DNA of 64,000 nucleotides from Tubulanus polymorphus (Eukaryota > Nemertea > Palaeonemertea > Tubulaniformes > Tubulanidae): the NCBI RefSeq assembly GCF_964204645.1, contig NC_134025.1, positions 18,692,001-18,756,000 of the forward strand, written 5' to 3'. Positions 10,704 to 62,574 of the stretch are shown here, piece by piece; the first letter of the stretch is position 1, and the number at the start of each line of letters is the position of its first letter. Under the pieces are notes generated by a model. That model saw only the letters and a list, made by a program, of their open reading frames with translations, searched no databases and had not been told where the DNA came from. Position numbers and translations under genes: made by a program.

Positions 10704-10773
10704 TACATCAACTATTTACAATACTATATATACTATTATATACATCAACTATTTACAATACTATATATACTAT
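10704..10773. repeat. Two tandem 33-37-bp AT-rich units at a LINE 3' end
   Basis: The stretch TACATCAACTATTTACAATA followed by CTATATATACTAT occurs twice in a row, from about 10704 and from 10741. It directly adjoins the stop codon of the LINE frame (minus strand), so it is the 3' tail or an amplified part of the 3' untranslated region of that element. Confidence 0.7.
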
Positions 10774-12119
10774 TGGAGGGATCTATATACATCTAAGCCG
10801 GTCTTAATGAATTTAGCTAAGTTGACCGTTGGGTTTTTCAGAATATCAAGGGTATTAAAGGTATTCAAATTCAAAAAGTTTTTGCGTTGTTCGTTAAGTA
10901 AGGTACAGTCAAACAGAAAATGGGATTCGTCACCTAAAGTATTACAAGTGGGGCATATTCTATCGGCTCTGTCTAAATGAAGGTTTGAAAATTTGTTCAC
11001 AGGTAAAATATAGGACCCGACCCTAAATTCAAATAAACTAGTTCCTAAGTCATCACCAAGTTCTATTATATACTTCTCTAACCTAATATCATTTTTATAT
11101 TGCCTAAAGTTAGTGTATATCGGATTAGTATTTATGGCAGAAACAGTTTCTTGAAGGTGCTGGTCACGGAGTATCTGTTTTATTCGTTTTGAAAAAGATT
11201 TACTGTTAGTCATGAATTGCTGCGTCCAAATGCAGGACAAACCACAGTCATCAAACGTTTTCTTTATATATGATAACCAAGGGCTCTTAAAATTATCCCT
11301 TAAAAATAAATTGAAAGATATTTTATAGAGTATTGAATTAAGTTTGGTTTGCTTTCCAGATACTGTTTTCACCCAAAAGTTAATCATCCTGCGTCTAACA
11401 TCTATATTCAAAGGGTAACGTCCTAGCTCTGATAAAACTTGTAAGTTGCGAGAATATTTCGTCACTTTCATTAAGATTTTACAGAAGAAGCAATGAATAT
11501 TTTCTAATAAATCAAGATTTTCATATCCCCAGATCTCACACCCATACATGGCAATTGGAGCAACACACGTATCAAATAATTTAAACATAACATCTATGGG
11601 CAATTTCAAACGTCTGCCTTTTTGAACGATCGAAAACATAGCTCTGATAGCTTTATCGTAAAGATACTTTTTTGCCTTAGCAAAGTTACCATTCCAATTG
11701 AATTTTACTCCGAGATAAACATAATCTTCAACTACCTCTAACTCTTGATCACCAAACATAAATTTCGAAATCGTTTTTATCCGGGATTTACTTCGCGCAA
11801 ATACTAGTACTTTAGTTTTCTCTGGGTTAACAGTGAGACCATTAGCCGCGCAATATTCAAATAAGGTATCTAAGTGTAGCTGAAGAGATTTCTCATCCTC
11901 AGCAAGAATAACTGTATCATCTGCGTATAGTATTATGAATAAATTCAGTAAAGTATCAATATCCTGATCACGATTCAAATTTAGTTTTTCTATAAATGAC
12001 AAAGTCGATTTTCCACGATCAATGAAAAATTCTTCGATGTCGTTTAAGAATAACGAAAAGAGGATAGGTGAGAGATTTTCGCCTTGTCTTAAACAGAAGA
12101 TGCCGTTGCGTGCTGCCAT
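10770..12119 (-). CDS. LINE reverse transcriptase, C-terminal part (449 codons, 5'-truncated)
   Basis: The frame encodes the back half of a non-LTR retrotransposon ORF2. Residues 11-21 (RQGENLSPILF) are reverse transcriptase motif B' and YADD at 65-68 is the catalytic motif; NPEKTKVLVF near 98-107 fits the following block. A C-x2-C-x7-H-x4-C pattern (C389, C392, H400, C405) is a likely zinc-knuckle near the C-terminus. The endonuclease and the first half of the reverse transcriptase are missing. The first Met is only the first ATG in the surviving frame, not a real start. The 3' end runs into AT-rich tandem units. The open 1.35 kb suggests a fairly young insertion. It lies head-to-head with the Rab gene, 150 bp from its ATG. 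Confidence 0.85.
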   Translation of the reverse strand: MAARNGIFCLRQGENLSPILFSLFLNDIEEFFIDRGKSTLSFIEKLNLNRDQDIDTLLNLFIILYADDTVILAEDEKSLQLHLDTLFEYCAANGLTVNPEKTKVLVFARSKSRIKTISKFMFGDQELEVVEDYVYLGVKFNWNGNFAKAKKYLYDKAIRAMFSIVQKGRRLKLPIDVMFKLFDTCVAPIAMYGCEIWGYENLDLLENIHCFFCKILMKVTKYSRNLQVLSELGRYPLNIDVRRRMINFWVKTVSGKQTKLNSILYKISFNLFLRDNFKSPWLSYIKKTFDDCGLSCIWTQQFMTNSKSFSKRIKQILRDQHLQETVSAINTNPIYTNFRQYKNDIRLEKYIIELGDDLGTSLFEFRVGSYILPVNKFSNLHLDRADRICPTCNTLGDESHFLFDCTLLNEQRKNFLNLNTFNTLDILKNPTVNLAKFIKTGLDVYRSLQ

Positions 12120-12271: not shown

Positions 12272-12380
12272 ATGGCGGCGCCCATGAATGAAGACGATCT
12301 TGTTAGCGGCGCATCCTCTGACATTACGAGCAAACACGAATTTCTATACAAAGTGTTGGTTGTAGGTGAATTTGGAGTTG
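12272..12380 (+). CDS. Rab32: Rab exon 1 (start codon to P-loop)
   Basis: 109 bases give 36 codons plus one base. It starts at ATGGCGGCGCCC and ends inside the P-loop (GEFGV-G), before the donor GTGAGT at 12381. The first 22 residues are acidic and Ser-rich, as variable Rab N-termini are. A second ATG four codons on (Met5) is possible, but the first has the better context. Confidence 0.9.
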
Positions 12381-24300: not shown

Positions 24301-27300
24301 TAGATACACCCTAACCGTTATTTCAATGATAGAAGGTTCTAGAACGATGACCACACTCAAACGTGGTGAACGGATAGGTGTCACACCTGACGATGATCTC
24401 TAGGGTGAGATCGAAACGTTGTGTCTTTTAAATATTTTAGATTTAATAAATAAATTCTGGTTTTTAAATTCTTTAAATCTTTAAATAGTGGGATTTTATC
24501 TTATTATAGAAGGTTCTCTTTGGTAATGAATGGATTTTGATTTTTTCAGGAAAGACCTCCATCATTAAAAGATATACAGAAGGTAAACATTTTCAGTTCA
24601 AATTTTTTTTCAGTCATAAAAGTGTTGTAATTCTCCAGCTAAAATACCAATTATCCTTTCTTTGAGTGGGGGTTGGGTAAAAGTTCATGAAGTTGCCTAA
24701 ATCAAGTATACTCCAAACATCTGTGCCCAGTAAAGCTCGTCTAACTCCGGCAAAATTCGTCCGAGGTAAGGAAAGTCTTTTGTTAAAGATAGGGAAATGC
24801 ATCAGGAAGTCAGAAAAATGATTTCATTTTTGTCTGAGTTCGTTAAAAGTCCACGCTAGCCATGTCCAAGTAGGCGAGGTTCACTATATTATAAACATTT
24901 TATTCAGTACTACTGCAGTCAAAGCTCATTATAACACAGTATATAATTATGTCGTAATATGAATATTCACCTGGTATTCATTGGCCAGAATTAGAACCAA
25001 AACATTATCTAGATTCCAAAAAGATTCATTTAGTCCAGGAGCAATTCACCCGAGTACCTCTGGTTATAGGGATCATCACAATAAATTAGTGAGGATGTCA
25101 AGTCAAGGGCTGAACAAGGGACCAGTCATTTATTACGTACGCATGATGGGCGGTTATGTCTGATCCGTACAGGGTCTGTACAGGGGAGGGGGTTCAATTA
25201 TATGTTATGATGACATATCAGCGTAAAGTCTATGACGTCATGCCAATGCTAATAAAATTGATCGAAAGTCGCAGTAAAAAAAAGTGCATCAGACTCATCT
25301 CATTTTCACAGCACCTTCAAATTGTCACTCCGTTCACGTAAAACATTAGAAACAGTTGAAAATTACTCAAAATAATGTGTCAATTATTCCCTACAAGAAA
25401 GCATCACAAGATTTCTGATTTAATGGTCCAAACAGTTATTCTATCGCATTTTTTCTTGTTAGTTATGTGGCAGATGAGAGGGGGTTAAGCAATCGCGTAG
25501 TGATATATCCGCATTGACATCGGCAGTAAAGAATCGGGAATGGCCACTTTTGAATAGTTTCACCTTGACTTATTCTAGGTCAACTTGTACATCACCATAT
25601 ACAATATAGTATTCTGTAAGAACCCTCACTTTGACCCATCATCGTAACCTTAGCTCAGGCGTGAGAAATCTATTTTTGTTTCATTCAATATTTTGTCAAA
25701 ATGATTTCATTTATCAAAATCGCTGTGTCTCTGAATAGCAATACCTCACACCCTGACCCAGATACTAGCTACTGGAGAATTATATCAATAGTACTTTTAT
25801 TATTAAGAGGTGACGAGATTCCATCCCCGGCTTTCAGCTAATGCTAATTTCAGGAATTTCTACTTGTGTATGATATCAGAAAACTGATTGTACATCGAAG
25901 ATATTCTTGATGTTTCCTTTTTATACAACACTCAATCATTAAAGAAAAAGGAAAATAGAAAATGATTGTAATACAATTTTAAAACTTCTCCCAGAATAAT
26001 TCAAGGAATTTTTGGAAAAATTGCCTTTCCAACTGATTATGAGGGGAAAATGAAAACAGCATTATTAATCCTGATTTTCTCATGTTACTATTTTGCAGTT
26101 CAACTTGGTCATAATGACGTCATATTTTGTATCTATCAAATTTTAGGATTTTTCTCTCCAAATTACAAGCTGACAATTGGTGTTGACTTTGCATTGAAGA
26201 CATTGCAGTGGGATGAACATACAAAAGTTAATCTGCAGTTGTGGTAAATATTTATGCATTTATAAATTACCAGTTGCAAAGGTCATTTACAAATTAAAAG
26301 AATTAAAAGAAAGAATTTTATCTAATGGATTGAGGAAGATTAATTCTTGAACTCTTGTTTTATTGAAGAAGAAAAGTAAAAGGCATAACAGGATTTTTAT
26401 ATGGACTGCTTGTAGTCTATAACAACATCCTCCCACTGCTATCTGAGTCAACAGTTGTCATATGATCAGATTTACTTAAACAGCACGGTTGCAATGCTTC
26501 ATCTCAGTTGTGTCACTTGTGTCACATCCGGACAGATTGGTCGTGGGCCTATTGAATAACAACCCTCCTAAATGTCGAAAATTTTGTTTTGAAGTTCAAT
26601 CCAATGAGCCCGTTAATAAACGCAACAATTATACTCCGGTAGGCCTAAAGCCGAGTAAAACTCGATAAACACTTCAAGCGACATAGCGAACGATCTCCTT
26701 ACCCCCACAGCAAACGCTTACTCCAAATTTCAAGTGTGAGTCCAGCATACGGAAAGGAGTGTGTTATATACTTGTATTTAGTAAATACCTTGTGCATTTG
26801 ACAATGATCGGTATGTACTGTAGGAAATATAGAGTATTGATGGTATTGATATAGAGGTTGAAGCCCGCGGCCGAATAAAGTAATATATTCTTTTATTTTG
26901 ATACCTCGTCGACATAACAGCTTTTCTCCGCTATATCTCTTCGGCGTGTTTAGTTTAGGCCTACGACTCTACAGTACACTAAAGATTTTTTTTAGTAAAT
27001 ACATGGTTAATTTGGTAAAGAAAAATAGGTATTGTTAAACTAACTCCTTGAAACCCGCAGCCAAATCACTGGTAGTAATAAACGAATTTGTACTCGATTT
27101 GATTCTCATGATAAGGGGAAACTCGCAGCTGATCCCCGAAACGACGATGTAGTGACACACGTCGATTCGTCGATGTTTACGGCTCGAAAGTGCTTTTAAA
27201 GTAGTAAATTTCCAGTGTATCGGTAATATGATTTGATGAGGAAAATGGGCTATTGTTAAAATTACTGTTTGAAGACCGCGGCCGAATGTGAAGTCTGCGG

Positions 27301-32400: not shown

Positions 32401-35400
32401 AGTGTCGGAAATAAATGATCATGTCGACCATCGGTGTCCAAAATATATCTTGCTGCATCGGGCCCGAAGTCAGGGAAAACAAGAACAGGTGGCTGGGTGA
32501 GTGCATGCTTGATTTTGTCAAAAGCCAGGCGCTGTTCCTCCCCCCCAAGTAAAGGGTTGATCCTTATGGGTTAGCATGTGTAGGGGTTGACACATAGTCG
32601 CATAGTTATCTATGAACTTAGCATAGTACGTGACCAGCCCCAGAAAACTCTGGACCTCGGTGACATACTTCGGTGCAGGCCAGTTTAGGACCTTGTCAAT
32701 TTTGGTGGGGTCTGTCTCTAACCCAGCTGCACTTACCACATGTCCAAGGAAGGCCAACCGCCGCTGCATGAGGTTACACTTCCTCGGTTTCAGTTTCATA
32801 CCCGCAGCCCGGAAACATGAGAAAACCTCGGCCAATTTGTCAAGGTGAGATGTAAGGTCTGCCGAAGGGACGATATATCGTCCAGGTATATTGGAGCAGT
32901 CTTCCAGGAAACTTTGTCGAGGGCCATCGACATCAGGCGAGTAAAACACGCCGGTGCATTGATAACGCCAAAAGGCATCACATTCCACTCATACATCTTA
33001 TTCTCGAACACAAACGCAGTCTTGTGTTTATCTTCCTCTTTGATGGGAACCTACCAATATCCACTAGTCAGGTCCAAGGTCGAAAACCAAGACGAACCAG
33101 ACAAGGTCTCAAGCAGGCCATCTATTCGACCGAGCGTGTGGCTATCTTTGATAGTACAATCGTTCAACTTCCTATAGTCGCAACAAAGTCTAAGGTTACC
33201 GTCAGCTTTTCTTGCAAGTACAATTGGGCTAGCCCAAGCAGAACTGGAGGGGCAAATTAGGTCGTGCTCTAGTAGCTCTCCAGTGTAACCCTCAACAAAT
33301 TCCCGATGTCCAGGCGGGAGTCTCCGTGGTTGCTGTTTCACCGGCTTTGAATCTCCTGTGTCTATTTCGAATTCAACCTCCCGTTTACAACCCTCTTCAG
33401 CAACCGTAAGAATCCCCACACACTGCAGTGGGTTGAAACAACCAATTGGCTCACCGTGCCTGACCCTTAGTGGTGCGTCTGAGAAGTTTGCTAACCTGAC
33501 AGGTACCCTGTTGTTCTGTGGGATGACCAAGGTCTTACCCGTGCAGAATTGAGTACGCTTACTCCCCTCAATCATACCCGGCATGGAATTGTAGTGACCA
33601 AACCTTTTCTTGAATTGGCCAGCAACCACCATCTCACTACCAGCCGGTATGTAGGTCGTCCAATCAACTAAATTCGACAACAGCTTGGGGATTGAGAATT
33701 CTGCCAAAGGGGTATCTCATTCAGACCCCACTGCAGCATGCAGCGAGAGAAATCCAGAACACAGTTATGACGCAGGAAGAAGTCATTTACCCAGCAAAGC
33801 TCGTCGGCAATAACCATGGGTACCTGAAATTTCAGACCACCTAGTTCTAGGATAACATCAGCCTCCCCCCGGAGTGACAGGGCCTGCCCATTTGCTGTGG
33901 TAAGGACCCAACTACAAGGTCTTAGATCCCGAGGGGACCCAGCCCCTAGGCTGGCTTCCCACACTGGGGATCTAAGGACGGTTAAAGAGACCCCCGCATC
34001 TAAGAGGATCGATGCAGTTGCCCTTGTGTTGATCAAACCCGAAACATATAGCCCGTGTCCTGGACGCAAACATTCCCAATAGATAGTGTCTTGTCCTTCG
34101 TAGCCGTGTGGCAGTCAGGGTGTAAACCATCGTATGGTGTCCCACCTGTCACGATTCCCACATCTAGGGCTGGCTCCGTCTCACAAGGCTGGAGGTCGAC
34201 CGGTTTCTGGGGGGTTGTGAGACAGTCCGGGTGTGAACCATTGTTTGGTGTCCGATTTATCACGTTCCCCACATCTTGGACTGAATCTGTCTCGCGGGGC
34301 TGGGAGTCAACTGATTGTCGGAGGGTCGTGAGGTGATCTAGGTGTAAACCATCTTCGGGGTGTCCAGACATCTCATACTCACCACTTTGAACCAGTTTGA
34401 TCTCCGTGCTTTGGCCTCCTATAGCTGGACTTGTCCCCAACCTAGGCCTTTGGTATGGGGGTACATACTTATCAGGCTCGGGGCACTCTAATTTGTTGGG
34501 TTTGCTCTGCCCCTTGATCGACCCGAGGCTCCATTTCCCGCCCTCTGCACACAATCTCTTGCGTAGTGGCCAGGTGCCCCACATTTGCGGCATGTGACCT
34601 GGGGACATCAACTCGCGGGGTGGTCCGGGGCTCTGCAGTGCCAGCACAGGTCTACATTCCTGGATGGAATGTTTTGTCAACTGGGACCGCCTCCCCTCGT
34701 GGAGAGGTCGGCAACGGTAGTCTCCATTGTCTCCATGCTGGTGGATAGGCTCAGTACCAACCCCACCAACTCGCTCATTAGGCCTTCATTTTCCGGGGTC
34801 GGGTGCACCTGGTTGATAGTCCACTTTGGCTTCGGGTCCTGGGCTGATTCGAGGCCACGGGCTGTCCTTACTGCCTCTGCCAGGGTCTGTGGCTGTGAAA
34901 TGTAGAGCGACTCCTTAGCATGGGGTGCTAGATTCACTCCGCACATATACTGGTCCTTGGCCAGTTCGTCTTGGAGGTTAAATGTCCCTCATTCACCTTT
35001 TGTCATTTTGAGAGTCAACTGCTTTGTCGCAACACCAGACACCACACTACAAATAGATGCAGTTGAGTATTTGACAGAATAAGTCTTAATTTTTAGACGT
35101 TTTACGACCACGTGGTCATGATCGACAGAAACAAACATTGTCTTATCCTATAAAGTGTATACTTTATTACGGATTTAATAAAGATTGAATTGAATTGAAT
35201 TGCCGGAATGGCTTCTTGCGGAAGCATCTCCCGTAAATGACTGTTCCTTTTTTCATGTAATTATATACATGTATAATATTTAACACATACGACCTCTTGC
35301 TAACACCTATCTCGACCTATGATGTTTTTAATCGGCTTAAAGAATAAAATAAATTCTTACTTTGAAGCAGAGGCAGCCATTTTGTTATGTGGTCTCTCCG

Positions 35401-38400
35401 CAATCACACCGGTCGACAGATTGGAGAGAATGGACTCTCCGAACTCTCCAGAAATAGTCACCTGATCAATAATGGAGCGTCCGGATTATCCATACTGCAT
35501 AAAAGAATCGGCCCATGCGGATACGGACTAAAATAAACAAGGGATATGGATTTGGTTAAGCCTAGTCCGCCACATACTGGTACAATCGATATCTCCCATC
35601 ACTTGCCTGCCAAAACCGTACTGATACGGTTGTCTTGTTTCTTAACTTTAACGATAGATGGCGAATTCATCGCACAACACCAGTTAGTTTAATGACTTTA
35701 CTACTAAACTATCATCAGTCGTTCAATACAGTGTGTTAGTGATATCATCTATTGAAATGGGGTCTGAACGCGCATGAATGGGCATATTTTATGCAAAATA
35801 CCCCCTCTGCACTAGTGATTGCTGCAGATTTTATCACTTTTAGAAGAAATGCTGCTTATTTTACATGAAAAAGCAAGACCAGATGAACAAAATTAAACAA
35901 ATTTGATGATGATCTCTTTTAGTTTTTGTTTTATGAATCTCTGAAAAACACGGAAATCCTTGCAAAGTGCGGCATTTCCTGAAAAATAGACCTGGCAGGC
36001 AAAGAGTTAGGAACCCAATCTTATTCTGATGAGTTTACATGCTGAACAAAATAACAGAGATAAGAATATATCACTGTTAATTCGATGAAATGTTTTATTG
36101 AAATATTTGAATACATGTATGGGTAAGTTGTAGATCGCTGATAAAGCACTATTATCAATATTATTATAAATTAAATTTATTCTGGTCCTTGGCCACTGTT
36201 GATGTAAGATTTTAAGGACTTCTAAATCCATACTAAAAAAACAATGATGGACAACAAACCTTGTGAAAGTTTATGTAGACAAATTAACTTCGTTATTAGA
36301 ATCAAACACAATTTGTGTTTATGCATAACCTGGTTTACATTGAACCTGGTTTACGATCTAGCTCAAATCCACTTTTCGTCACAAACAAATTGTCGATAAG
36401 TTTCAAGATTTGTAGACCAACTGGCGATATGAATAAGCCTCTGGCCGAAGTTAAAATGCATTTACAGATTACAAAACCATTAACGAAGCTCAGCAGCTGA
36501 AAGACAGATAGACATACAGACACATTCAATTGACTCAAAACATTGTATGGTATTGCACAGCTGGGCTGTTTGGCGAATAGAATGTTGAGATGATATCTAC
36601 AATGTTCAGAATTATCCGCTTACAATATAACTCCTGGCTGTAAGAAAATCCATATTTAATATGACCGTATGTCCAACACTTTTGAAAACTATAAATAAAA
36701 TGTCCATAAGCCTATATGAATCAAACAGAAACCCGTTAGAAAATAAGGAATATAAAAGTGCGAGCGGATCCCTAATGCACGTCAGACCAGCGCGTTATCG
36801 GCTGCGCTATCCGGTCACTCAGCCACTCGTAAAGCTATTATATGATGGAACTTAATGTAGCTTAGATATGAGATTCACACCTACGTACATTCTTGTTCTT
36901 CTCTTCTGACATGATAAAATTCTTTTTACGCAAGATTAATTCATGATAAATTACTATACGAAAGTTCGCTAAGTTATATTTCTGTCAGAATTGGAAATTA
37001 CGTTTATTGTAAAAACTTGCGGCACAAATCAGATAGATTACCCTTTGTGTAATCACTGTCATGGCAAAGTTCATGGATAAACTTTAACTGGAAAAACCAG
37101 GATCGTCTCAATTACTTCATGTTCATAAGGAACTTACCAGTAATCTTGACACTAATGCTGTGTGAAATGAGTTCATTAATCATAAATCCATCAATGACTG
37201 ACTTCAGTTTTGAAAATTTGAATAAGTATTTTGAAGGCTCATGAACGGACATCTGTTATGCATGCCTTGTACAGTTAATGATATGTTATGCAAGATGAAT
37301 ATTGTATGTTATATGCAAATGAAAAAGTCAGATTTATTAATTGTATATTTATTAGTTTCTAATTAAGGTGTCTATCTGATCCCATGGCCTCTACACCATA
37401 TTACTCCTTGCTGCGGGTCTGAAGAAAATAGAAAATGTCATGGAATATGTCCCAGCCGGTGGGATTTTACTTGTTATTTTTTGCTAATTGACTTAATCTT
37501 ATTATATTATTATTATTATTTCATCTGATTATAATGACCCAGTCTAACAAGATATCTTTTTTAGCCTTACAGACTGCAAAATTAAAATTCCAAGAATTAA
37601 TCTGACATTGACCTTATAGTTCTGTCACATTATCTCACATGAACGTGTATTTCATTTTCTTCAGGGATATTGCTGGTCATGAAAGATTTGGTCATATGAC
37701 ACGGGTTTATTATAAATATGCGTAAGTTAAGTAAAAGAAATTAAAATCTTCCTGAGTACCCACATGGTGTTTGAAAGCTAGTGAATCCTAACAGGCAGTA
37801 CAAATTTGATCTCAAGCCTATACCTATGAACCAATTTGCCTCAGAAGGCTACTGCAATTCATTTTAAGTTTTAATTCTAGCAGCTACAACTCCAATTTTC
37901 AGTGTACTAGTGATCTTGATCTAACAGGGACACCATGCCCACTTGAAAAGTGGTTTCAAATGCTCAAAAATCTAACAATTTCAATATCCAACAACCCCTG
38001 GTGGCCATATAGAAAAACCGATGACCTTGAAACTCGCCACAATCATAGAACATGTTATGAGCTACAACTTGGCAATTGATTGTGGTAACGGTATATGCTT
38101 AGGTATCAATATAATGTGGAAGATACTTTTCCACCTACGAATGAGTACTGATGACACCAAGATGGCTGCCAAGTGCGTGATAATTGGCTGACCAAAATAC
38201 CTGCCTCGGGTATTAAAGATCCCTTTCCATAGAATTGCCACCACAAATTTCAATGAAAAATGGCAAACCAGTAGGAAGCTACAGGACTACATTTTATGGC
38301 ACAAAAAGGTCACAGGATGGCCATCTTGAGTTCGATCGACCTGATTTTTCTTATTCTGATGGGCTCTTGGGGGATCAGGGATGAAAATCTTCCAATTTGC

Positions 38401-41400: not shown

Positions 41401-44400
41401 ATTTTTTGCTCGGCTTATATTCTTTGTCCTTGAACTGTAATTCATGGCTATAATTCGTGTTTGTTTTGTTAGAACTATCATTTTCCGTTGTAAGTGAAAA
41501 TAGTTTCAGAACGAGAGATGGTTAAACTGGACTCTTAAAAAAGTTTAATCTAAATTGTTTGAAAAGTTACGGTTAAACTGATTCCTGCGTGATCTGGATC
41601 CCGTGTGATTGTAATACTGTATAATATAACAAATTGAATAGTTTAACATCTCTTCTTGTGTGTTGAAATAATAAAACTCAAAAAGATAACCTTATCTGAT
41701 TATCATTGTGTTGTTGGTTTGTGTCCAGGAGTGAATTTCAGAATCCGTTACTTAATAATTCAAAGGCCCCCTTTTCTTAGCCGAGGAAATGAGAATCGTT
41801 ATCCCATTAGCAATGGACCGCGCCAGCGTTGAAATAAGAATTCCCGACTACCGACTGCTAGCGCCACTGTGTTCGCTTGCCTTAACATATCATGCCTCAG
41901 TACTGACTGCTAGCGCCACTGTGTTCCGTATGGCGATCGCTTTTCAATTAGGAATAATATATCGTCAGTGAATTATTAAATGTTTTCCAGTAGGTTATAT
42001 AGTGTAAAGGTCAATTCATAATGTTTCAAAATTTCCGCGGATTTCAATACCTCCTGTTTTCATCCCTGGGGGATACAAATACATCCGAAAGATCAAGATA
42101 ATTGATCAAAGCGTCTTCAAAACTAACCTCGAAAACTTGTTGAAAAAACCTGATTTTGGCGAACAACAATGGCTGCCAGTCGGCCATCTTGAATCCGACA
42201 TGGCCAGTTTTTGGGCTGAAGATGTGTCTAGGGTAGAAACATGTGCAACCCAAATATAAAGACATTGAAGTGTCTTCAAAACTTCCCAAAATAACTGCAT
42301 TCCGTCTAAGGATGAACAGACAGACAACAGACAAAAAGTGAACACAATAGCCCGCTGGGATTTAAGTCCCAAGTGGGCTAAAAAGGCCATATTTACAGAT
42401 TTACGCGTATTATACAGAGTTGCACACCTATGACGTTTATATCTATTAATGTACTACAAGCTAATACTACACAAATACATCTATTTTACAGATAATTTGT
42501 AATAAAAAATGTAAGTATAATACACAAATACAAAAAACATCTGCAACTTGGATAATGATCATGAAATAAACCTCAATTCTACAGGCCAGTTAAATGAACA
42601 TGCAAAATATCTGTATTACAAACAGACACAACACAAAGTATCAAAGACAACCTCCCATTGTTAGTACCATGTATACTCAAGTAAAAGTGAGAATTTCTAG
42701 GGAAGTTAAAATCAGGTAAATTTTTGGGGGTCGACTTACAGGAGTAATTCTTAAATCTTTGAATGAGAGGGTCCAGAAAATAACAATAATTTTCAATGTC
42801 GGGTGGGAAATTATGATTTAATTTAAAAGTTTGGCATATCATCCAACAAGTGTGCCATTGATTATACTGAGCTAGGAATATTTGCTTAACTAGACACGCG
42901 AAAGAATGATGCTGAAATGTGTTTATTTTGATTAACCTACCAACTGTATGTCCTTTTTGATATGCAATACTGATACAAATATACATTATAAAATCTTCCT
43001 GAAAGTTTCCACGTAGACAAACATAAATACCAAGACCTACTTCCGTACTAAAAAACATGTTATAGTTAACTATCGACACAAACCGTCTTTTGTTATCCAA
43101 TGCTAACTACCAACACAAAACATCATTCATGGTTACAAACCTAACTGGTGGCACTACTGGAGAACCATCTGAGTTACCTAGTCAAACCATATATCAATAC
43201 CGCCGACTCGTAAAGAGCTACTGACCACAAATTGCAACCACGATTCTATCCCAACAGTTAAGGAGCTAGGAACAAAAATCTCATTTTAGAAAATACTCTA
43301 GCTTATACGTAAACATAGACTTCAGTAAGAATCGCTCAGCACATTCGCTAAGATGATGACCTCAAATACTGCTATAAACAATACACCTGCTCTGTTGTGT
43401 TCCACGCAATAGAAATTCCTCAGCTTTAGTTAACTGAGATGATAACCTTGAGTGCCACACAAAAGCAGCAGAAACCCTAAAAACAAAAACCCTCAAAATA
43501 AAAGGGTTTCTGCGAAAGCGGCGGCAGAAACCCTTATAACATAAAACTTAAATTCATCCAAAAGATGTCAATGAAAATATTAGTTCCAGGTTGAGATGCA
43601 AATAATGAATACAGTAGAACCTCGTTATAATGATACAATGATTCATCGGATATAACAAATATAGAATTTCGTCCCAAGTAAGAAAATTTGATTAATTTCC
43701 TGTCGGATATAAAAAAACATACTGGAACCTGTAAGAGAATTTAGTACAAATAAGGGAAAACTTTGAAGTGTTGTCAAGAGTTTTGGAAGATCATAAAATG
43801 GAGTCCAGACAATCTCTCTGGTGGAGAATAGTTCTATTTTAAGCTGCAGTAGAAACAATTGCTATTTGAATAACTTTGTTGGTTCCTGGTTTGTGATTAA
43901 TTCATTAAAGTGTTAATCATAATCAGACTATTCTTGAAAGAATGATTTTGTTTTTTCAATGAATGATATAATAGCAGTGCTGATCGCCATATTCTATGAA
44001 CACAATTTATTTCAAAATTGTATAGCTCATTATATTTCTACTGTTTCTATATTTTCATGGTTTCTGTACATGATCATTTGGGGTTGAAAAGCATGATAAC
44101 ATGGTATATCCAATTCAATACGTCAAGCATTTCACAAGAGGGCATTGTGTCCTTGGATCCCTGGTAAAATGTATGATTCCTTTCAATTTCAGAATTGGTG
44201 CTATCATTGTATTTGATCTGTCAAGGTGAGATATAGAAATGATATTTGTTTGTACTTATGAGAAACTAGACATTATCTTATATTCTTGCTATGATTATTC
44301 AGCAATAGCATGTTTATTTTTTTTAGACCAGCCACGTTTGACTCTGTTATCAAGGTATATGTAGGGATATGTAATTTATTTTTTTGGAACTCATGCATGC

Positions 44401-44763
44401 AGCTTACAACCTGTAGTCTGTACACACCCTCCTTGGCATTCAACAGACATTTCTCAAGACATGTTTGTCCAGACATCGCCACCCCACTTTTGAACATATT
44501 AGGGTGTCATGTCTGCACCATCAATTTTTAGACATTCACCATTTGTGAAAAATGTGCTCCTCCAGCTTTGCCAATGAAAAAGTTATCGTCTGAGGGTGTG
44601 GGTACTTAATGGGTACATATTCCATTCTTAATTATTCCATATTACATTCTTAATTAGTAACATTTCTCATAATTCTGGTGTTTTTTAGTGGTTGAATGAT
44701 GTCAACTCAAAGGTTATGCTTGCAAACGGGGACCCTGTTCCTATAATATTACTTGCTAATAAG
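12272..44763 (+). CDS. Rab32: Rab32/Rab38-family small GTPase (seven exons, 3' end outside window)
   Basis: Rab32/38 GTPases cycle between GDP and GTP on membranes and guide cargo to lysosome-related organelles. Seven exons with AG/GT borders join in phase to 144 codons. Visible blocks: acidic N-terminus (1-22), KVLVVGEFGVGKTS P-loop (27-40), LTIGVDFALK switch I (56-65, Thr57), WDIAG with switch II (80-96), IIVFDLSR (103-110) and ILLANK (139-144). The IGVDFALK block is typical of the Rab32/38/29 group. Residue 85 is His where the catalytic Gln is expected. The Asp of NKxD, the SAK motif and the C-terminal cysteines were not found down to 64000. Introns are about 12.2, 1.6, 11.4, 6.5, 0.1 and 0.33 kb. 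It could be Rab32/38 itself or a related invertebrate paralogue. A processed copy is excluded by the introns. Confidence 0.92.
12562..13942 (+). repeat. Intron 1 repeat unit U1
   Basis: First of three related long units that open intron 1. Landmarks in order: GATGAAATCTAAGTGAC at its start, AATTGAAAA(T/C)TAATGCCAG near 12835, GGAAGACGAGAAGATTAC near 13248, AAAAATTGATTTCTCTTG near 13391, and the GC-rich GCAGTGCACGCGGCCAGCGG block near 13462. It ends at 'GCCGGAT', immediately followed by the start of U2, a head-to-tail junction. No coding capacity was recognised; the frame at 13637-13870 is shared non-coding sequence. Confidence 0.75.
13943..16440 (+). repeat. Intron 1 repeat unit U2 (with internal insertion)
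   Basis: It repeats the U1 landmarks in the same order and direction: GATGAAATCTAAGTGAC near 13950, AATTGAAAACTAACGCCA near 14994, GGAAGACGAGAAGATTAC near 15370, AAAAATTGATTTCTCTTG near 15797. Compared with U1 it holds about 0.75 kb extra at roughly 14110-14860, which has hairpins of GTCGTTGTT/AACAAC type near both ends. It continues past the end of U1 into a tail (ACTTCGTAGTATCCACATA) that U3 also has. Confidence 0.75.
14110..14860. mobile_element. Hairpin-ended insertion inside U2
   Basis: This block is absent from U1 and U3. Near 14121-14155 it holds GTCGTTGTT...ACAACGTCTGACG, and at 14821-14849 the hairpin CTAGTCGTTGTT / AACAACGGCTAG. Its right half (about 14510-14850) matches 19205-19510 in the inverse direction, and that copy also begins with a CTAGCCGTTGTT / AACAACGTCTAG hairpin (19209-19237). 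It is therefore probably a mobile repeat with terminal hairpins. No coding frame is recognised. Confidence 0.5.
16441..17354. other. Spacer between U2 and U3, no gene seen
   Basis: About 16487-16555 is an inverse copy of 12484-12560 (GTGGATATTT, CGCTATTTTAC, GTACATT words), so exon 1-proximal intron sequence has been reused. A hairpin with 11-bp perfect arms, CTTAGTGTCAG / CTGACACTAAG, lies at 17138-17148/17171-17181. The minus-strand frames here have no recognised domain. Confidence 0.5.
17355..18830 (+). repeat. Intron 1 repeat unit U3
   Basis: Third unit in the same direction as U1 and U2: GATGAAATCTAAGTGACGG near 17366, AATTGAAAACTAATGCCAG near 17651, AAAAATTGATTTCTCTTG near 18129, GCAGTGCACGTGGCCAGCGG near 18212, and the ACTTCGTAGTATCCACATA tail near 18769. 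All three units have a minus-strand GGTTCGANNCC B-box-like word (about 13706, 16153 and 18429), but no tRNA fold was seen around it. Confidence 0.75.
18831..19913. other. Non-coding stretch with inverted repeat remnants
   Basis: 18890-19105 is internally inverted: CTGTTTTAATCCAGTTGAATA and GAAATTTCTTGAATTTGAA near its start reappear in reverse near 19030-19100. 19205-19510 is the inverse copy of the insertion in U2. The frames at 19312-19506 and 19545-19763 have no recognised domain. Confidence 0.5.
19910..20710 (-). pseudogene. Penelope-like reverse transcriptase fragment
   Basis: Read on the minus strand, three frame pieces give, in order: SYVNDTNHLLDIL, ALLIAMDIDSL...YTNIPHEEGI, FAPSNANIFVAEWE, ARFIDDIYMVWEHGRETL, and finally IVKSQILRFWRIC near 19.95 kb. 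Together 'MDIDSLYTNIP', 'FAPSxANIFMA', '(Y/F)IDDI' and 'QILRFWRIC' are hallmarks of Penelope-like element reverse transcriptases (PLE). IDD is the catalytic block. The pieces lie in different frames and the GIY-YIG endonuclease and N-terminus were not found, so this copy is dead. It is antisense inside Rab intron 1. Confidence 0.75.
20711..24340. other. Intron 1 continuation, no gene seen
   Basis: 20812-20925 resembles 38365-38460 (GGGATGAAAAT, TTTTATCATTCTTG, AGATCCGTTGAGAAAT words), a dispersed repeat. A run of 17 G lies at 21358-21374. A hairpin AAAGCCGCT-GAG-AGCGGCTTT lies near 23970. The minus frames at 21146-21451 (Pro run from the G tract) and 22955-23326 have no recognised domain. Nothing else could be assigned. 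Confidence 0.5.
24329..24517 (+). mobile_element. Short insertion with target duplication and hammerhead-like motif
   Basis: A 12-bp direct repeat ATAGAAGGTTCT flanks 165 bp: it lies at 24329-24340 and 24506-24517. Inside, 24375-24420 reads as a hammerhead-type core: a UA site (near 24376), a short GGTG...CACC stem I, CTGACGA (24387-24393), a stem II of GATCTC/GAGATC (24395-24400/24407-24412), then GAAAC (24413-24417). Stem III would be AACG/CGTT but with a bulge. Such motifs accompany Penelope-like elements and small retroelements in animals. An AT-rich tail follows. The element ends about 45 bp before Rab exon 2. Confidence 0.5.
24550..24582 (+). CDS. Rab32: Rab exon 2 (P-loop end)
   Basis: 33 bases between the acceptor TTTTTTCAG (ends 24549) and the donor GTAAAC (24583). 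Together with the last G of exon 1 it encodes GKTSIIKRYTE, completing the nucleotide-binding P-loop GxxxxGKT. It ends one base into the next Gly codon. It is a micro-exon, but the phase and the conserved residues leave little doubt. Confidence 0.9.
24583..26146. other. Rab intron 2, no gene seen
   Basis: About 24917-24940 begins CAGTCAAAGCTCATTATAACA, like one end of a Tigger-type MITE, but no matching second end was found. The frames at 24614-24802, 24981-25163 and 25156-25341 show no recognised domain. The frame at 26050-26247 is intron read-through into exon 3. Confidence 0.55.
26147..26243 (+). CDS. Rab32: Rab exon 3 (switch I)
   Basis: 97 bases from the acceptor ATTTTAG (ends 26146) to the donor GTAAAT (26244). 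It encodes FFSPNYKLTIGVDFALK and QWDEHTKVNLQLW up to the split Trp codon. It contains switch I with the invariant Thr57 and the IGVDFALK signature of the Rab32/38/29 group. Confidence 0.92.
26525..27645 (+). repeat. 1.1-kb dispersed repeat, copy A (hairpin end)
   Basis: Begins near CCGGACAGATTGGTCGTGGG and matches 59391-60527 (copy C, same direction) and 44829-45980 (copy B, inverse). Landmarks: AACTCGATAAACACTTCAAG, AGTCCAGCATACGGAAAGG, TTGATATAGAGGTTGAAGCC, and a block with TTTACGGC(T/C)CGA twice. It ends in the hairpin AGGGTTTTCT (27609-27618) / AGAAAACCCT (27629-27638) followed by AA. Short frames at 27177-27395 and 27308-27694 are readings of the repeat, and similar frames exist in copy C. 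Probably a non-autonomous mobile element. Confidence 0.8.
27646..29377. repeat. Diverged repeats with recurrent 'GCTACTGGAG' block
   Basis: The small hairpin GCTGC-AAA-GCAGC lies at 27646-27658. Two related blocks follow: about 27980-28140 and 28434-28575 both read GGCGCTACTGGAG...CCATATGAGTTAC, then GATTCTATC...CGGTTAAGGA...CTAGGAGCAAAAATC. A third copy is at 43140-43290. 27770-27830 repeats CATGGGTCAGC words. No gene is recognised; the minus frame at 28509-28715 crosses one such block. Confidence 0.6.
29378..29406. repeat. (ATA)n microsatellite
   Basis: About nine uninterrupted trinucleotide units. The same trinucleotide precedes the AGGGTTTTCTG hairpin in the 1.1-kb repeats (for example near 60465-60482), so it is probably part of that family's 3' end rather than an independent microsatellite. 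Confidence 0.85.
29422..29561. repeat. Array of three terminal hairpins (family H)
   Basis: Three hairpins in a row: AGGGTTTCTGC/GCAGAAACCCT (29422-29450), AGGGTTTTCTG/CAGAAAACCCT (29481-29510) and the same stem again (29532-29561). Loops differ. Spacers contain ATAATAAT and 'ACGCAAATCTCA' or 'ACGTAAATCTCA', as in the ends of the 1.1-kb repeats. The first stem differs from the others by paired changes, so pairing rather than sequence is kept. Confidence 0.75.
29562..29949. other. Non-coding stretch in Rab intron 3
   Basis: No gene or recognisable repeat seen between the hairpin array and the gypsy-type element. Confidence 0.4.
29950..32415 (-). mobile_element. Ty3/gypsy-type pol remnant, element 2
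   Basis: On the minus strand, in order: an aspartic protease with an intact SLDTGAG motif (about 32255), AWASPIVLAKKAD and ATWYSTLDLMCGYWQV of reverse transcriptase, EWNVMPFGLCNAPDCFSRL (31.43-31.5 kb), then integrase: an H...H...CRTCGECK zinc-binding region (30.75-30.92 kb), YGCPESIYSDQG (about 30520) and HFNDMKTCYWEPTGENP near 30260. Many frameshifts and stops break it. The RNase H region and the YxDD block are missing or unrecognisable. No LTRs were found. It lies antisense in Rab intron 3 and directly follows element 1. Confidence 0.8.
32518..33707 (-). pseudogene. Gypsy-type reverse transcriptase (frameshifted)
   Basis: Three pieces in sequence. 33707-33051 carries REFVEGYTGELLEHDLI, AWASPIVLARKADGNLRLC, DYRKLND and STLDLTSGYW, then a TAG where Gln of SGYWQV belongs. 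33011-32796 carries EWNVMPFGVINAPACFTRL and IYLDDI, the catalytic YxDD. 32988-32518 carries LKPRKCNLMQRRLAFLGHVV and QSFLGLVTYYAKFI. These are the blocks of a Ty3/gypsy reverse transcriptase in the right order. One stop and at least one frameshift disable it. Confidence 0.8.
33668..34069 (-). pseudogene. Gypsy-type aspartic protease region (catalytic motif altered)
   Basis: A 133-codon frame with ASILLDAGVSLTVL where retroelement proteases have LLDTGAS. The catalytic motif is D-A-G instead of D-T-G. VLDFSRCMLQW near the end matches the distal part of the domain. The frame ends at 33668, overlapping the next one by 40 bases in another frame. The enzyme would process Gag-Pol; here it is likely inactive. 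Confidence 0.7.
34991..35210 (+). mobile_element. Retroelement 3' tail with (TTGAA)n
   Basis: The stretch ends AATAAAGATTGAATTGAATTG, a polyadenylation-like signal and a short pentanucleotide repeat. This is a common 3' end of animal LINEs and their SINE partners. Similar TTGAATTGAATTG words occur at 14328-14341 and, inverse, at 49841-49853. No coding part is attached; its 5' limit is not known and may abut the gypsy remnant. Confidence 0.5.
35211..37664. other. Rab intron 3 distal part, no gene seen
   Basis: AT-rich sequence with short frames (36007-36231, 36315-36500, 36335-36538, 36661-36855), none with a recognised domain. A CACGTG word lies near 35110. The acceptor for exon 4 is TTTCTTCAG ending at 37664. 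Confidence 0.6.
37665..37721 (+). CDS. Rab32: Rab exon 4 (switch II, His at the catalytic Gln site)
   Basis: 57 bases complete Trp80 and encode DIAGHERFGHMTRVYYKY with two bases of the Ala99 codon; donor GTAAGT at 37722. WDIAG-x-ERF is the Walker B/switch II block of Rabs. The residue after Gly84 is CAT (His) where nearly all Rabs have Gln. All other residues in the block fit, which argues against a wrong exon call. Confidence 0.92.
37900..38372 (-). repeat. Dispersed repeat R1, 5' portion (copy 2)
   Basis: 37925-38095 is the inverse of 61150-61325 (ACACCATGCCCACTTG, CTAACAATTTCAATA, CACAATCATAGAACATGT). 38248-38372 matches bases 5-150 of the window in the same direction (GGCAAACCAGTAGGAAGCTA, GGCCATCTTGAGT). 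The two parts are joined here, which links the 155-bp tandem array at 60.7-61.3 kb and the R1 3' end into one larger repeat family. Strand is relative to the tandem array. Confidence 0.6.
38373..39200. other. Non-coding stretch in Rab intron 4
   Basis: 38373-38465 resembles 20812-20925. A run of 9 G's lies near 38458. A possible donor CCAG|GTATGC at 39011 followed by an acceptor TTGCAG at about 39221 could mark an intron of the hAT-like gene that starts after it. The minus frames here are not supported. Confidence 0.4.
39222..41433 (+). pseudogene. hAT-like transposase gene, frameshifted
   Basis: Four pieces on the + strand. 39222-39418: QVLHSEAMLLAFLADKN, closed by a frameshift. 39414-39923: IDLIKALCKDRNAL, FFSLNIDEATSLSL (first catalytic Asp region), SVLVDSCNVMRG (second Asp region). 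39944-40900: YVVTRWLSLHDA (the R-W block of hAT enzymes), up to about 40800; then the reading moves frame through EWWSLVAKAYPNLSKMVFALL. 40984-41433 continues after a stop with NIVDTTSNRLNISTYSALQTV and a Lys/Arg/Ala-rich coiled tail. The order matches animal hAT transposases of the KIAA1586-like kind. Three or more frame breaks make it inactive. It lies in Rab intron 4 in the same direction as the host gene. Confidence 0.7.
41434..42059. other. Non-coding stretch, probable hAT element 3' flank
   Basis: No gene seen. 41806-41942 has two copies of ACTGCTAGCGCCACTGTGTTC. The terminal inverted repeats of the hAT element were not identified. Confidence 0.4.
42060..42385 (+). repeat. Dispersed repeat R1, 3' portion (copy 3)
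   Basis: Matches bases 150-473 of the window in the same direction (ATCCGAAAGATCAAG, GGCGAACAACAATGGCTGCC, GGGCTGAAGATGTGTCTAGG). It ends with the hairpin GCCCGCTGGGATT / AAGTCCCAAGTGGGC and CTAAAAA near 42349-42383. The minus-strand frames at 42044-42334 and 42106-42390 are shadows; the corresponding shadow in copy 1 is at 319-579. Confidence 0.75.
42579..43100 (-). CDS. Unrecognised 173-codon open frame
   Basis: An uninterrupted minus-strand frame starting at ATG near 43100. The product would be rich in aromatic residues, Cys and Asn (NYNMFFSTEVGLGIYVCLRG near the start), with no signal peptide, transmembrane segment or family motif that I recognise. The frame is long for the local base composition, but it lies inside Rab intron 4 between repeats, so it may be a mobile-element remnant or chance. 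No splice signals or partner frames support it. Confidence 0.25.
   Translation of the reverse strand: MDNKRRFVSIVNYNMFFSTEVGLGIYVCLRGNFQEDFIMYICISIAYQKGHTVGRLIKINTFQHHSFACLVKQIFLAQYNQWHTCWMICQTFKLNHNFPPDIENYCYFLDPLIQRFKNYSCKSTPKNLPDFNFPRNSHFYLSIHGTNNGRLSLILCVVSVCNTDILHVHLTGL
43140..43295 (+). repeat. Third copy of the 'GCTACTGGAG' repeat
   Basis: Reads GGTGGCACTACTGGAGAACC, GAGTTACCTAG, GAGCTACTGACC, ACCACGATTCTATC and GTTAAGGAGCTAGGAAC, in the same order as 27980-28140 and 28434-28575. Confidence 0.65.
43465..43535. repeat. Family H hairpin with duplicated arm
   Basis: A half arm GCAGCAGAAACCCT at 43465-43478 precedes the complete hairpin AAGGGTTTCTGC (43502-43513) / GCAGAAACCCTT (43524-43535) with loop GAAAGCGGCG. 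The stem is the TTTCTGC variant also seen at 29422-29450. Confidence 0.7.
43536..44192. other. Rab intron 4, distal part
   Basis: At 43614-43637 CAGTAGAACCTCGTTATAATGA resembles a Tigger-type terminal repeat; no partner end was found. 44137-44165 (GGGCATTGTGTCCTTGGATCC) resembles the GGGCATGGTGTCCCTGGACCC word at 61295-61315. No gene. The acceptor AATTTCAG ends at 44192. Confidence 0.5.
44193..44225 (+). CDS. Rab32: Rab exon 5
   Basis: 33 bases finish Ala99 and encode IGAIIVFDLS plus two bases of Arg110; donor GTGAGA at 44226. Hydrophobic beta-strand with the Asp typical of Rabs (VFDxSR). Confidence 0.9.
44327..44354 (+). CDS. Rab32: Rab exon 6
   Basis: 28 bases finish Arg110 and encode PATFDSVIK; donor GTATAT at 44355. 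Corresponds to the (S/A)TF-x-x-V-x-K helix that follows the strand in Rab32/38. A micro-exon supported by phase and by the flanking exons. Confidence 0.88.
44689..44763 (+). CDS. Rab32: Rab exon 7 (to N-K of NKxD)
   Basis: 75 bases, 25 whole codons, from the acceptor TTTTTTAG (ends 44688) to the donor GTAAGA (44764). Encodes WLNDVNSKVMLANGDPVPIILLANK. LANGxPVPxxLLANK is a strong Rab32/38/29 signature; the Cys-Asp that should follow begins the next exon, not found in the window. Confidence 0.92.
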
Positions 44764-46204: not shown

Positions 46205-46750
46205 ATAATTTTGGTTTTGGTGCCCGCGACAATTCATTATTTTGGTTTTATCGCCCGCGACAATTCATTATTTTGGTTTTATCGCCCGCGACAATTCATT
46301 AATTCGGTTTTGTCACCCGCGACAAATCAATATTTTGGTTTTGTCGCCCGTGACAATTCAAGATTTTGGTTTTATCGCCCGCGACAATTCATTTTTTGGT
46401 TTTGTCGCCCGCGATAATTCATTATATTGGTTTTATCGCCCGCGACAATTGACTAATTTGGTTTTGTCACCTGCCACAAATCAATATTTTGGTTTTGTCG
46501 CCCACGACAATTCAATATTTTGGTTTTATCGCCCGCAACAATTCATTATTTTGGTTTTATCGCCCGCGACAATTCATTATTTTGGTTTTGTCGCACGGAA
46601 CAATTCATTATTTTGGTTTTATCGCCCGCAAAAATTTTTTTTTTGTTGCGGTTTTATCGCCTGCGACAATTCAATATTTTGGTTTTATCGCCTGCTACAA
46701 TTCAATATTTTGGTTTTATCGCCAGCGACAATTCAATATTTTGGTTTTAT
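46205..46750 (+). repeat. 31-bp minisatellite, about 17 units
   Basis: Each unit has a CGCCCGCGACAATTC core and a TATTTTGGTTTT core. The unit is about 31 bp, not a multiple of 3, so the three forward frames read the same cyclic peptide shifted by one unit, and nearly all units lack stops. Long overlapping frames therefore appear at 46211-46417, 46242-46772, 46489-46755 and 46520-46762 (GFIARDNSLFWFYRPRQF type). I do not call any of them a gene. A few units are shortened or altered (for example near 46391 and 46625). Confidence 0.9.
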
Positions 46751-46913
46751 CTTAGGAACTGATGAATGTTAGACAGAATTAGCCGCATTAGAGTAATGCA
46801 ATTCTTTGCTTGATATACACTGCGTATAGGTTGGCTTTGTTATGACATTAGAATGCAAAGAATTGCATTACTCTAATGCGGCTAATTCTGTCTAACATTC
46901 ATCAGTTCCTAAG
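46751..46913. repeat. Perfect inverted repeat, 59-bp arms
   Basis: 46751-46809 and 46855-46913 are exact reverse complements over 59 bases (left arm begins CTTAGGAACTGATGAATG), with a 45-base loop. It directly adjoins the last minisatellite unit. No target duplication is evident (TAT before, TCT after). A foldback-type element, a very recent inversion-duplication or an assembly fold-back could each explain it. Confidence 0.9.
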
Positions 46914-53207: not shown

Positions 53208-54635
53208 TCATGCATTCTGGATGCATGGGGGGTTTGTCCCTGCAGGTCCCACAAACATACTGGGTCTCATTTCTATACTCCTTCCCCAGTTTTCTGTCAC
53301 TGCAAACCTTGCACTCGTTTGGTTGCCAAACTTCAGGGGGAAATGGGGATTCCCATCAAGGCGATCAACATTGTTCTTGGGATGAAGTCGAGGTCTACCA
53401 GCAGCGCGATTTTGATTTGGTTTTACAAGCGCATTTACAAGAGACAAGCGAAACTGTTTTGTTGTCATGACATCCCTCTCTTGTCTTTCAGCCTTATCTG
53501 TTTCATACAAGATGTATGAATTGACAATAGTGACCTCCAAATCATGGAAGAATATCTTCCGCCACCACTTGACTGATTTACGGTCAAACGGATAGTAACA
53601 ACAAAGTTGATCATTAGTGTCAACCCCTCCCATGTTCGCGTTGTAGTCTGTAATACAGATTGGTTTCTGCTTGGCTGGATTATTAGGTTTCTTTGACGGT
53701 ACACTGACCCACTTATCTGATCTGTGGCCATTGGTTATCATGGTGATAACTCTTTTGTCCTTCCACTGAACAACCAATATATCATCCTTTCGAAAAGCCA
53801 CAAGATCTCCAACTTTCATGCCTTTACTGGTTTTCAAAATTTTTGGCAGGCCTTTTCTATTAGGCATAATTGTTCCAGTCAAATTAAAACCCAGCTCAAT
53901 CAGTCTCTCGGCTAAATCGACAGACCAAAAGTAACGATCAGCAAATAACCAGTGTCCACAGTGAGCTAGTGGTGTTACCAAGTCAAGTACATGTTGTCCA
54001 GATTTACCGTATTCACCTGGATCCAGACCGCCATTATCGTCCTTCCCTACATACAAGTTTTGCTGCCACATATAAGATAAGTTGCTATCAGCTAATGTGA
54101 AGAGCTTGAGTCCCCACTTTATAGGTTTTTTAGGGCAATACTGGCGGAATGACACTCGGCCTTTGAATTTTACCATTGTCTCGTCAACAGCAATGGCCTC
54201 GCCCATTTCGTAAAGGGCTTGACTTTGAGCATTTATATGGTCGATCACCCACTTTATCTTGTACGATTTGGAAGGAATGTTTTGCCCATGTGGCAGCAGT
54301 TCAGCAACATGAAAGTGCCAGAACAGTAAATAGAACTCATCACGGCTCATAGATGAGTGGAAGAATGGTATGTTTATTCGGAAGTTACTTGAAAAATAAT
54401 CTGACAAACGTGGAAGTCTGATGATACCCATATTTATACACATACCCATCAGCGTTCTAATGTCATCCTTTGTTGGGGTTTTCCACTCTTTCAATCTTGA
54501 ATTCGGTTTCAAGTTCATTCTCGCAATTTTGTCATGAGTCACAGTATCAGTGTTCTGAGCAATGCGATTGATAATAGCATCTGACCAGAATAGGTTGAAA
54601 AAGTCGATTGGCTCTCTTCGCAGCATAGCCGGTAA
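53208..54635 (-). CDS. piggyBac transposase, exon 2
   Basis: Cut-and-paste transposase that inserts at TTAA. The frame extends to 54710, but an acceptor (TTTTCCAG, ending 54636) places exon 2 from LPAMLRREPIDFFNLFW. The three catalytic Asp lie in AVDETMVKFKGR (D176 counted from the frame's first Met), LFADRYFWSVDLAERL (D258) and GGVDTNDQL (D364); all are intact and in normal order. At the C-terminus the frame turns to QTSARFAVTENWG. One frame over, the same DNA reads CKVCSD, YVCGTCRD and PPMHPECMMRYHSL, the Cys-rich zinc-binding end of piggyBac proteins, so a frameshift near 53320-53330 cuts off this domain. Closest in style to animal PGBD4-like proteins. Confidence 0.9.
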   Translation of the reverse strand, partial: LPAMLRREPIDFFNLFWSDAIINRIAQNTDTVTHDKIARMNLKPNSRLKEWKTPTKDDIRTLMGMCINMGIIRLPRLSDYFSSNFRINIPFFHSSMSRDEFYLLFWHFHVAELLPHGQNIPSKSYKIKWVIDHINAQSQALYEMGEAIAVDETMVKFKGRVSFRQYCPKKPIKWGLKLFTLADSNLSYMWQQNLYVGKDDNGGLDPGEYGKSGQHVLDLVTPLAHCGHWLFADRYFWSVDLAERLIELGFNLTGTIMPNRKGLPKILKTSKGMKVGDLVAFRKDDILVVQWKDKRVITMITNGHRSDKWVSVPSKKPNNPAKQKPICITDYNANMGGVDTNDQLCCYYPFDRKSVKWWRKIFFHDLEVTIVNSYILYETDKAERQERDVMTTKQFRLSLVNALVKPNQNRAAGRPRLHPKNNVDRLDGNPHFPLKFGNQTSARFAVTENWGRSIEMRPSMFVGPAGTNPPCIQNA

Positions 54636-54860
54636 CTGGAAAAGATAAAATTTTATGTGATCAAGGGCCTGAATAAACAAATCAGAAATGAAATTATATA
54701 AATCCTTCATTTTCCATAAAAATCTAGGGAATTTTTATGCAAAATAAAATGAATTTATTCACGTGTGTGATCTCCCGAAATTTGTCGGAACATTTTTGTT
54801 TGAAAATAACCCACCCTGTAAACACCATATAAATCTAATTTTTACTTTAGAATTGCTCAC

Positions 54861-61344: not shown

Positions 61345-61760
61345 CGCTTCTGCCATCGTGTTGCATCAGTGATCGAGAAAACACCCACAATACCGGACAG
61401 CGCTTCATCGAGCCGCCGCTGAAAACATTCACTGCTGACCTTCAAACCGAAGGGTAAACGCGCCCATCGGAATCGGCCAAAAGGTGTGATCATTGTGGTT
61501 AGCAGACTCGATTCCTGATCGAGACAAACATGCCAAAAAGCTTCTTACACATCTAGCTTATTGAATACCTTCGCATTCCGTAACATGGGTAGGACATCAT
61601 CTACCGCCGTCAGCTTGCAATGTTCGCGTTGGAACGCATCATTTAACAGCATCGGATCAATACATATGCGGAGGTTACCATTCGGTTTACGGACCACTGC
61701 CATCTGGCTGACCCATTGGGTCAACGAGAACCAGCACACCGCGGTCAACTAATTGCTCTA
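61345..61760 (-). pseudogene. Gypsy-type reverse transcriptase, N-terminal part
   Basis: Minus strand: WVSQMAVVRKPNGNLRICID, DVLPMLRNAKVFNKLDV (the motif-A Asp), a TAA stop at the next codon, then AFWHVCLDQESSLLTTMITP, RWARLPFGLKVSSECFQRRL and GIVGVFSI. The sequence ends just where the YxDD block should follow (about 61345), at the edge of the tandem array, so the enzyme is truncated. Confidence 0.75.
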
Positions 61761-62574
61761 GTTCATTCTTTACATCGGCATGTAGGGCTAACGGTATGTT
61801 CCTACACGAGACCTGTCTCGGGCGAACATCAGGATCTACAGTCAGGTGGGCTATGCCAAGATCACCCAGTGGTTCGGGCTCTGTTTTCACTGCAGAAATG
61901 AAGTGATCATTATTCTCAGTTATTAAATTCATGTCTTGTATCGTTTTGAGACCAAGTAGACATATAAACTTGTTCGGCATGACGGTAAATCGAACTCGAT
62001 GTTTCTCGTTGTTACGCAGATTAGTCACTGTCAACGTAGTTTCACCCAGAGGCTTCATCTGAGTGTGGTTCCACATTATGAGATTCTTCGTTGTTTCACG
62101 AACTTGTTCCTTTCTTACGAAACGTTGGCAAATAGTGTTCACATTTGCGCCGCCATCGACTTGAAATTTGATATCGCAATCATTCACTTGCATCCATGCA
62201 TGTAAAACCGCTTTCATGTCAGCCTGCATGGCATTAAGCCAGCAGCCGTCTCCATAGTCGAGCAGTTTTTCACTCGAAATATCGACTGCATGTATTTTCG
62301 ACTTCTTACATTTTGCTTTAAAATGATTCCGACCGTTACAGTTCTGACAGGTTTTACCACACGCGAGACATCTTTCTTTTCCGGCTGCATGTTTGTAACC
62401 ACAGAAATCGCAGTCTGTAATTGGCTGGGTTTGATTCTTCGGTCTTCCCTTTCCTTTGGCAGCATGTGCAGCTCGTGGTTTGGAAACCATCTGGTTCATA
62501 ATGATTCTGTTTACTTTAACCCTTTTTCTGGATTGAACATGCGCATCGCAGATTTCTCTCGCATGAGATAACAA
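61687..62574 (-). CDS. Gypsy-type Gag zinc knuckles and protease region (295 codons)
   Basis: Long uninterrupted frame. A basic stretch (KGKGRPKNQTQP) leads into a Cys-rich array: CDFCGYKHAAGKERCLACG and CQNCNGRNHFKAKC, the last being a CCHC knuckle that binds element RNA. The protease follows with FQVDGGANVNTICQRF, where the usual D-T/S-G is D-G-G. FICLLGLKTIQDMNLI fits the protease's distal part, and ELEQLVDRGVL the start of reverse transcriptase. A frameshift at about 62580 separates it from Gag. Confidence 0.7.
   Translation of the reverse strand: MLSHAREICDAHVQSRKRVKVNRIIMNQMVSKPRAAHAAKGKGRPKNQTQPITDCDFCGYKHAAGKERCLACGKTCQNCNGRNHFKAKCKKSKIHAVDISSEKLLDYGDGCWLNAMQADMKAVLHAWMQVNDCDIKFQVDGGANVNTICQRFVRKEQVRETTKNLIMWNHTQMKPLGETTLTVTNLRNNEKHRVRFTVMPNKFICLLGLKTIQDMNLITENNDHFISAVKTEPEPLGDLGIAHLTVDPDVRPRQVSCRNIPLALHADVKNELEQLVDRGVLVLVDPMGQPDGSGP

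Follow-up and report, generated by a model that had tools for sequence, protein, structure and literature searches.

Rab32LO (Rab32 Lost in Olfactores), formerly the Rab32B of Elias et al. 2012, is a class of Rab GTPases characterised by Coppola et al. 2016 (PMC4728774). According to that account, it occurs in protostomes (molluscs and platyhelminths), sea urchin and amphioxus, has earlier records from Capsaspora, a sponge and Nematostella, and is absent by loss from tunicates and vertebrates. The same source gives the switch II consensus of the deuterostome members as DIAGxERFGxMTR, describes two conserved histidines as exclusive to Rab32LO, and notes a FALK stretch common to Rab32LO, Rab32/38 and Rab7L1. 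It also reports microsynteny of Rab32LO with Tim9 in sea urchin and amphioxus, and an expression in amphioxus too weak to be detected by in situ hybridisation. A 2023 review (PMC10952624) presents Rab32A and Rab32B as ancient paralogues, the latter having been lost in plants, in fungi and at the base of the vertebrates. Klopper et al. (PMC3425129) treat Rab32B as identical to Rab7L1, whereas Coppola et al. separate Rab32LO from Rab7L1.

The nine-exon gene analysed here, from Tubulanus polymorphus, carries histidine at the position of the catalytic switch II glutamine. We consider it very probable that this gene is an intact Rab32LO (Rab32B), an ancient sister class of Rab32/38, and the histidine is most likely a fixed, inherited trait of the class and not an error. 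One suggestion of the initial annotation was that the Rab might belong to a group of invertebrate paralogues, related to Rab32, in which switch II is distinctive. That idea was right, and the group is the one already published as Rab32LO/Rab32B.

Gene structure and the switch II exon

The window, that is, the whole 64-kb stretch of DNA that was analysed (C1:18692001-18756000), belongs to a 267.8-Mb assembly of 77 contigs. The Rab gene spans positions 12272-66936 of the forward strand on the window scale and consists of nine exons, seven of them within the window and the last two past its end (Table 1). Exon 1 was located by tblastn with a Rab32-like N-terminal probe, followed by manual exon reading. 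For the C-terminal part, a candidate exon at 58662 was set aside as a chance occurrence in favour of the exon at 66576. All eight introns have GT-AG borders, and the joined frame runs unbroken over 235 residues to a CCDL tail. The motifs that mark Rab GTPases are a P-loop of the form GxxxxGKT, NKCD, TSAK and a C-terminal Cys pair; every one of them is present (the P-loop as GEFGVGKT, the Cys pair within CCDL), as is the FALK stretch after switch I, which reads IGVDFALK in exon 3. The protein matches the Pfam family Ras (E 8.7e-40) and, in NCBIfam, the generic small_GTP domain only. Its closest solved structures are Rab-32 entries (best E 1.5e-65), followed by Rab-38 and then Rab-7L1.

Table 1. 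Exons of the Rab gene, its two switch II histidine codons and the neighbouring small-Tim exons (window scale, except where the contig is given)
Feature	Position	Strand	Content
Exon 1	12272..12380	+	opens with the start codon and includes the first part of the P-loop: MAAPMNEDD...EFLYKVLVVGEFGV(G); donor GTGAGT
Exon 2	24550..24582	+	(G)KTSIIKRYTE(G); AG/GT borders
Exon 3	26147..26243	+	switch I and FALK stretch, (G)FFSPNYKLTIGVDFALKTLQWDEHTKVNLQL(W)
Exon 4	37665..37721	+	switch II, (W)DIAGHERFGHMTRVYYKY(A); AG/GT borders
His85 codon CAT	37678..37680	+	at the site of the switch II Gln, which corresponds to Ras Gln61; read from assembled protein
His90 codon CAT	37693..37695	+	second His of switch II, where Rab32/38 have Asn
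Exon 5	44193..44225	+	(A)IGAIIVFDLS(R)
Exon 6	44327..44354	+	(R)PATFDSVIK
Exon 7	44689..44763	+	WLNDVNSKVMLANGDPVPIILLANK
Exons 8 and 9	66576-66684 and 66770-66936	+	beyond window end
Small-Tim exons	C1:18764568-18764642 and C1:18790060-18790176	-	genome search

Switch II is encoded by exon 4, for which the reading frame matters, since translation begun at its first base runs into stops. That base, 37665, is the end of a split Trp codon (TG|G); the in-frame reading begins at 37666 (DIAGHERFGHMTRVYYKYA), and its final Ala codon is finished by exon 5. The acceptor TTCTTCAG lies immediately 5' of 37665, and the donor GTAAGT begins at 37722. The resulting peptide is DIAG-H-ERFG-H-MTRVYYKYA. Histidine in place of the catalytic glutamine at residue 85, as claimed in the initial annotation, is thus confirmed, being a CAT codon in a GT-AG exon that matches 37665-37721 exactly. 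The accompanying statement that all neighbouring residues are conserved, and the change therefore specific, proved wrong: a second His follows only five residues later, at residue 90, in contrast to the Asn of Rab32, of Rab38 and of the Rab32/38-like gene found elsewhere in the same genome. A nearby alternative exon carrying Gln was considered and rejected.

In the whole genome, a DNA pattern for D[I/T/M]AGxERF, which misses motifs split by an intron (as in the Rab32/38-like and Rab29-like genes described below, both with Gln), found 27 sites: 24 with Gln, two with Glu and a single one with His, that of exon 4. The reversed control of the pattern gave one site. The Rab-like genes with Glu for the switch II Gln (DTAGEERF) lie at C3:6933700-6934700 and C8:1283900-1284500; the second of these may be Rab20-like.

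Several other elements were observed in and around the gene. The intron between exons 7 and 8 holds, on the reverse strand, a 500-residue open frame (53208-54710; Pfam DDE_Tnp_1_7, E 2.5e-74), which we take to be a piggyBac-type transposase. Directly upstream of exon 1 lies a LINE-like frame of 449 residues (10770-12119, reverse strand; RVT_1, E 3.2e-16). Two reverse-strand frames, at 32518-32988 and 61687-62574, show weak reverse-transcriptase and gag-aspartyl-protease matches, both under the Pfam cut-off, and a tandem repeat with a 31-base unit in 17.5 copies (46208-46751) overlaps a forward-strand open frame of 176 residues. The 64-kb window gave no Rfam matches at the gathering score, and no tRNA genes were found in it.

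Paralogues, class assignment and linkage to Tim9

When the genome was searched with a peptide of three exons, 16 hits had an E value no higher than 0.01. Two separate genes in this genome bear on the class assignment: a Rab32/38-like gene on contig C8, which reads Gln in switch II, and a Rab29-like gene on contig C3, which also reads Gln (QERFTSMTR). Over an ungapped core of 86 residues, the target shares 69% of its residues with Rab38, 67% each with Rab32 and the C8 gene, 58% with the C3 gene and 57% with Rab29 (in the form of a sequence carrying an engineered Leu). The C8 gene, in turn, is 84% identical to Rab32 over 86 residues, and the C3 gene 70% identical to Rab29. These values suggest that the C8 gene is likely the Rab32/38 orthologue and the C3 gene likely the Rab29 orthologue, with the target representing a third line. 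The presence of three distinct genes fits the scheme of Coppola et al. In a tree of six sequences (86 columns, both His columns masked), Rab29 and the C3 gene were joined with a support of 98, while the other supports, on which the placement of the target depends, were 30 and 37. The tree therefore speaks neither for nor against Rab32LO as a line of its own.

The similarities to Rab32/38 go beyond core identity and the FALK stretch, as an exon border at NK|CD is present in both the target and the C8 gene. However, the two differ in switch II. The form proper to Rab32/38, DIAGQERFGNMTR, with Gln85 and Asn90, is that of the C8 gene, whereas the target reads DIAGHERFGHMTR, with His85 and His90. 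Intron positions differ as well: that of the C8 gene separates WDIAG from QERF, whereas that of the target lies inside the Trp codon. The CCDL tail of the target also distinguishes it from Rab32/38. With Rab29 (Rab7L1) the target likewise shares FALK, but at a lower core identity and with a different switch II.

By contrast, no difference was found from the published description of the Rab32LO class. Alongside FALK and the coexistence with separate Rab32/38-like and Rab29-like genes, the target has the two switch II histidines that mark the class. Judging from the consensus, the two class histidines would be the two x positions of DIAGxERFGxMTR, which are occupied here by His85 and His90. Relatives of Rab32LO were also sought further afield: viral contigs gave three stretches matching the pattern and prokaryote genome contigs 13, with no relative among either.

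The second class feature, Tim9 nearby, is present as well. A search of the whole genome for small-Tim exons (E up to 0.001) gave six matches, two of which sit just downstream of the Rab gene. Joined together, these two exons match Tim9 (2bsk_A) with E 1.9e-19, versus E 0.0036 for Tim10. The nearest Tim9-type exon match lies about 5.6 kb past the Rab stop codon, in convergent orientation. For comparison, chance alone would put a single Tim9 gene no more than 10 kb from any one particular gene of a 268-Mb genome about 1 time in 10,000. The gene described here is a further observation of the linkage between Rab32LO and Tim9.

Consequences of His85 for the GTPase cycle

What histidine at this position would mean for GTP hydrolysis can be approached through Rabs mutated at the switch II glutamine, and these precedents point both ways. 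In two solved complexes, as cited in PMC3919270, a TBC-domain GAP inserts both an Arg and a Gln. Langemeyer et al. 2014 (PMC3919270) describe a Rab5 Gln mutant whose GAP-stimulated hydrolysis is unchanged, although its basal rate is down more than fivefold, and, as cited there, the Gln is likewise dispensable for GAP-stimulated hydrolysis of Rab33B with RUTBC1. On the other hand, the same paper reports that mutation of the Gln strongly reduces GAP-stimulated hydrolysis in Rab1 and Rab35. As to the partners of the nearest relatives, RUTBC1 is described as a Rab32/38 GAP and BLOC-3 as a longin-type Rab32/38 GEF (PMC3502862).

On this basis, we propose that Rab32LO may behave like any other Rab switch, anchored to membranes and acting in traffic of late endosomes or lysosome-related organelles. 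Its intrinsic GTP hydrolysis would be slow, yet responsive to a GAP. Turning it off would fall to a TBC-domain GAP that contributes both the Gln and the Arg, and turning it on to a GEF that, like the longin-type GEF TRAPP, is independent of the switch II Gln. Taken as a whole, this mechanism seems to us evenly poised between being right and being wrong, and it could fail, given the strongly reduced GAP response of the Rab1 and Rab35 mutants.

The initial annotation had suggested instead that the protein may stay GTP-bound, which would make it a permanently active Rab with no off-switch. Dominant-active Rabs are indeed commonly made by mutating the switch II Gln (PMC3919270), and K-Ras Q61H, with His at the equivalent position, is oncogenic and comes from a set of mutants said to impair GAP-assisted hydrolysis. 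However, the K-Ras case is a cancer mutation in a protein whose GAP uses the Gln of Ras itself, whereas the histidine of Rab32LO is inherited and the TBC GAPs of Rabs can bring their own Gln (PMC3919270). Since the switch II Gln is dispensable for GAP-stimulated hydrolysis in some Rabs, namely Rab5 and (as cited) Rab33B, a GTP-locked state is a possible reading but not one implied by His85. It is further opposed by the inactivity of the Rab35 mutant (PMC3919270) and by the otherwise intact P-loop, NKCD, TSAK and Cys-Cys tail, as expected of a cycling Rab. We therefore regard permanent activation as rather unlikely.

The annotation had also left room for a read error or polymorphism, in which case the true codon would be CAA or CAG and the gene an ordinary Rab32. 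A single base change would be enough for that, but one read error would not produce the second His at residue 90. This histidine and the Tim9 neighbour independently mark a class in which two switch II histidines are the reported norm, and a Gln-bearing Rab32/38-like gene sits elsewhere in the same genome; an assembly error or rare allele is therefore very improbable. Equally hard to credit is a decaying pseudogene that has lost its catalytic residue, since the long introns with their several transposon-derived frames are offset by 235 codons without a stop or frame break and by GT-AG borders at eight of eight introns.

With the gene read as an intact Rab32LO, it is a further member of an already published class. 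The main text of Coppola et al. (PMC4728774) nowhere mentions hydrolysis, a catalytic role or glutamine, and in the accessible portions of the open-licence literature on Rab32LO/Rab32B theirs was the only description found of the switch II histidines. A bolder and quite tentative reading would extend the argument to the whole class, from unicellular eukaryotes to amphioxus: His may be fixed at the position of the catalytic Gln, with the switch run entirely by partners. Intrinsic hydrolysis would then be negligible, switching off would depend solely on a dual-finger TBC GAP and switching on solely on a GEF that ignores switch II, and the histidine might add pH sensitivity near late endosomes. 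A class of Rabs that naturally bears His where Ras has Gln61 would offer a ready test of how far TBC GAPs can stand in for the Rab's own Gln.
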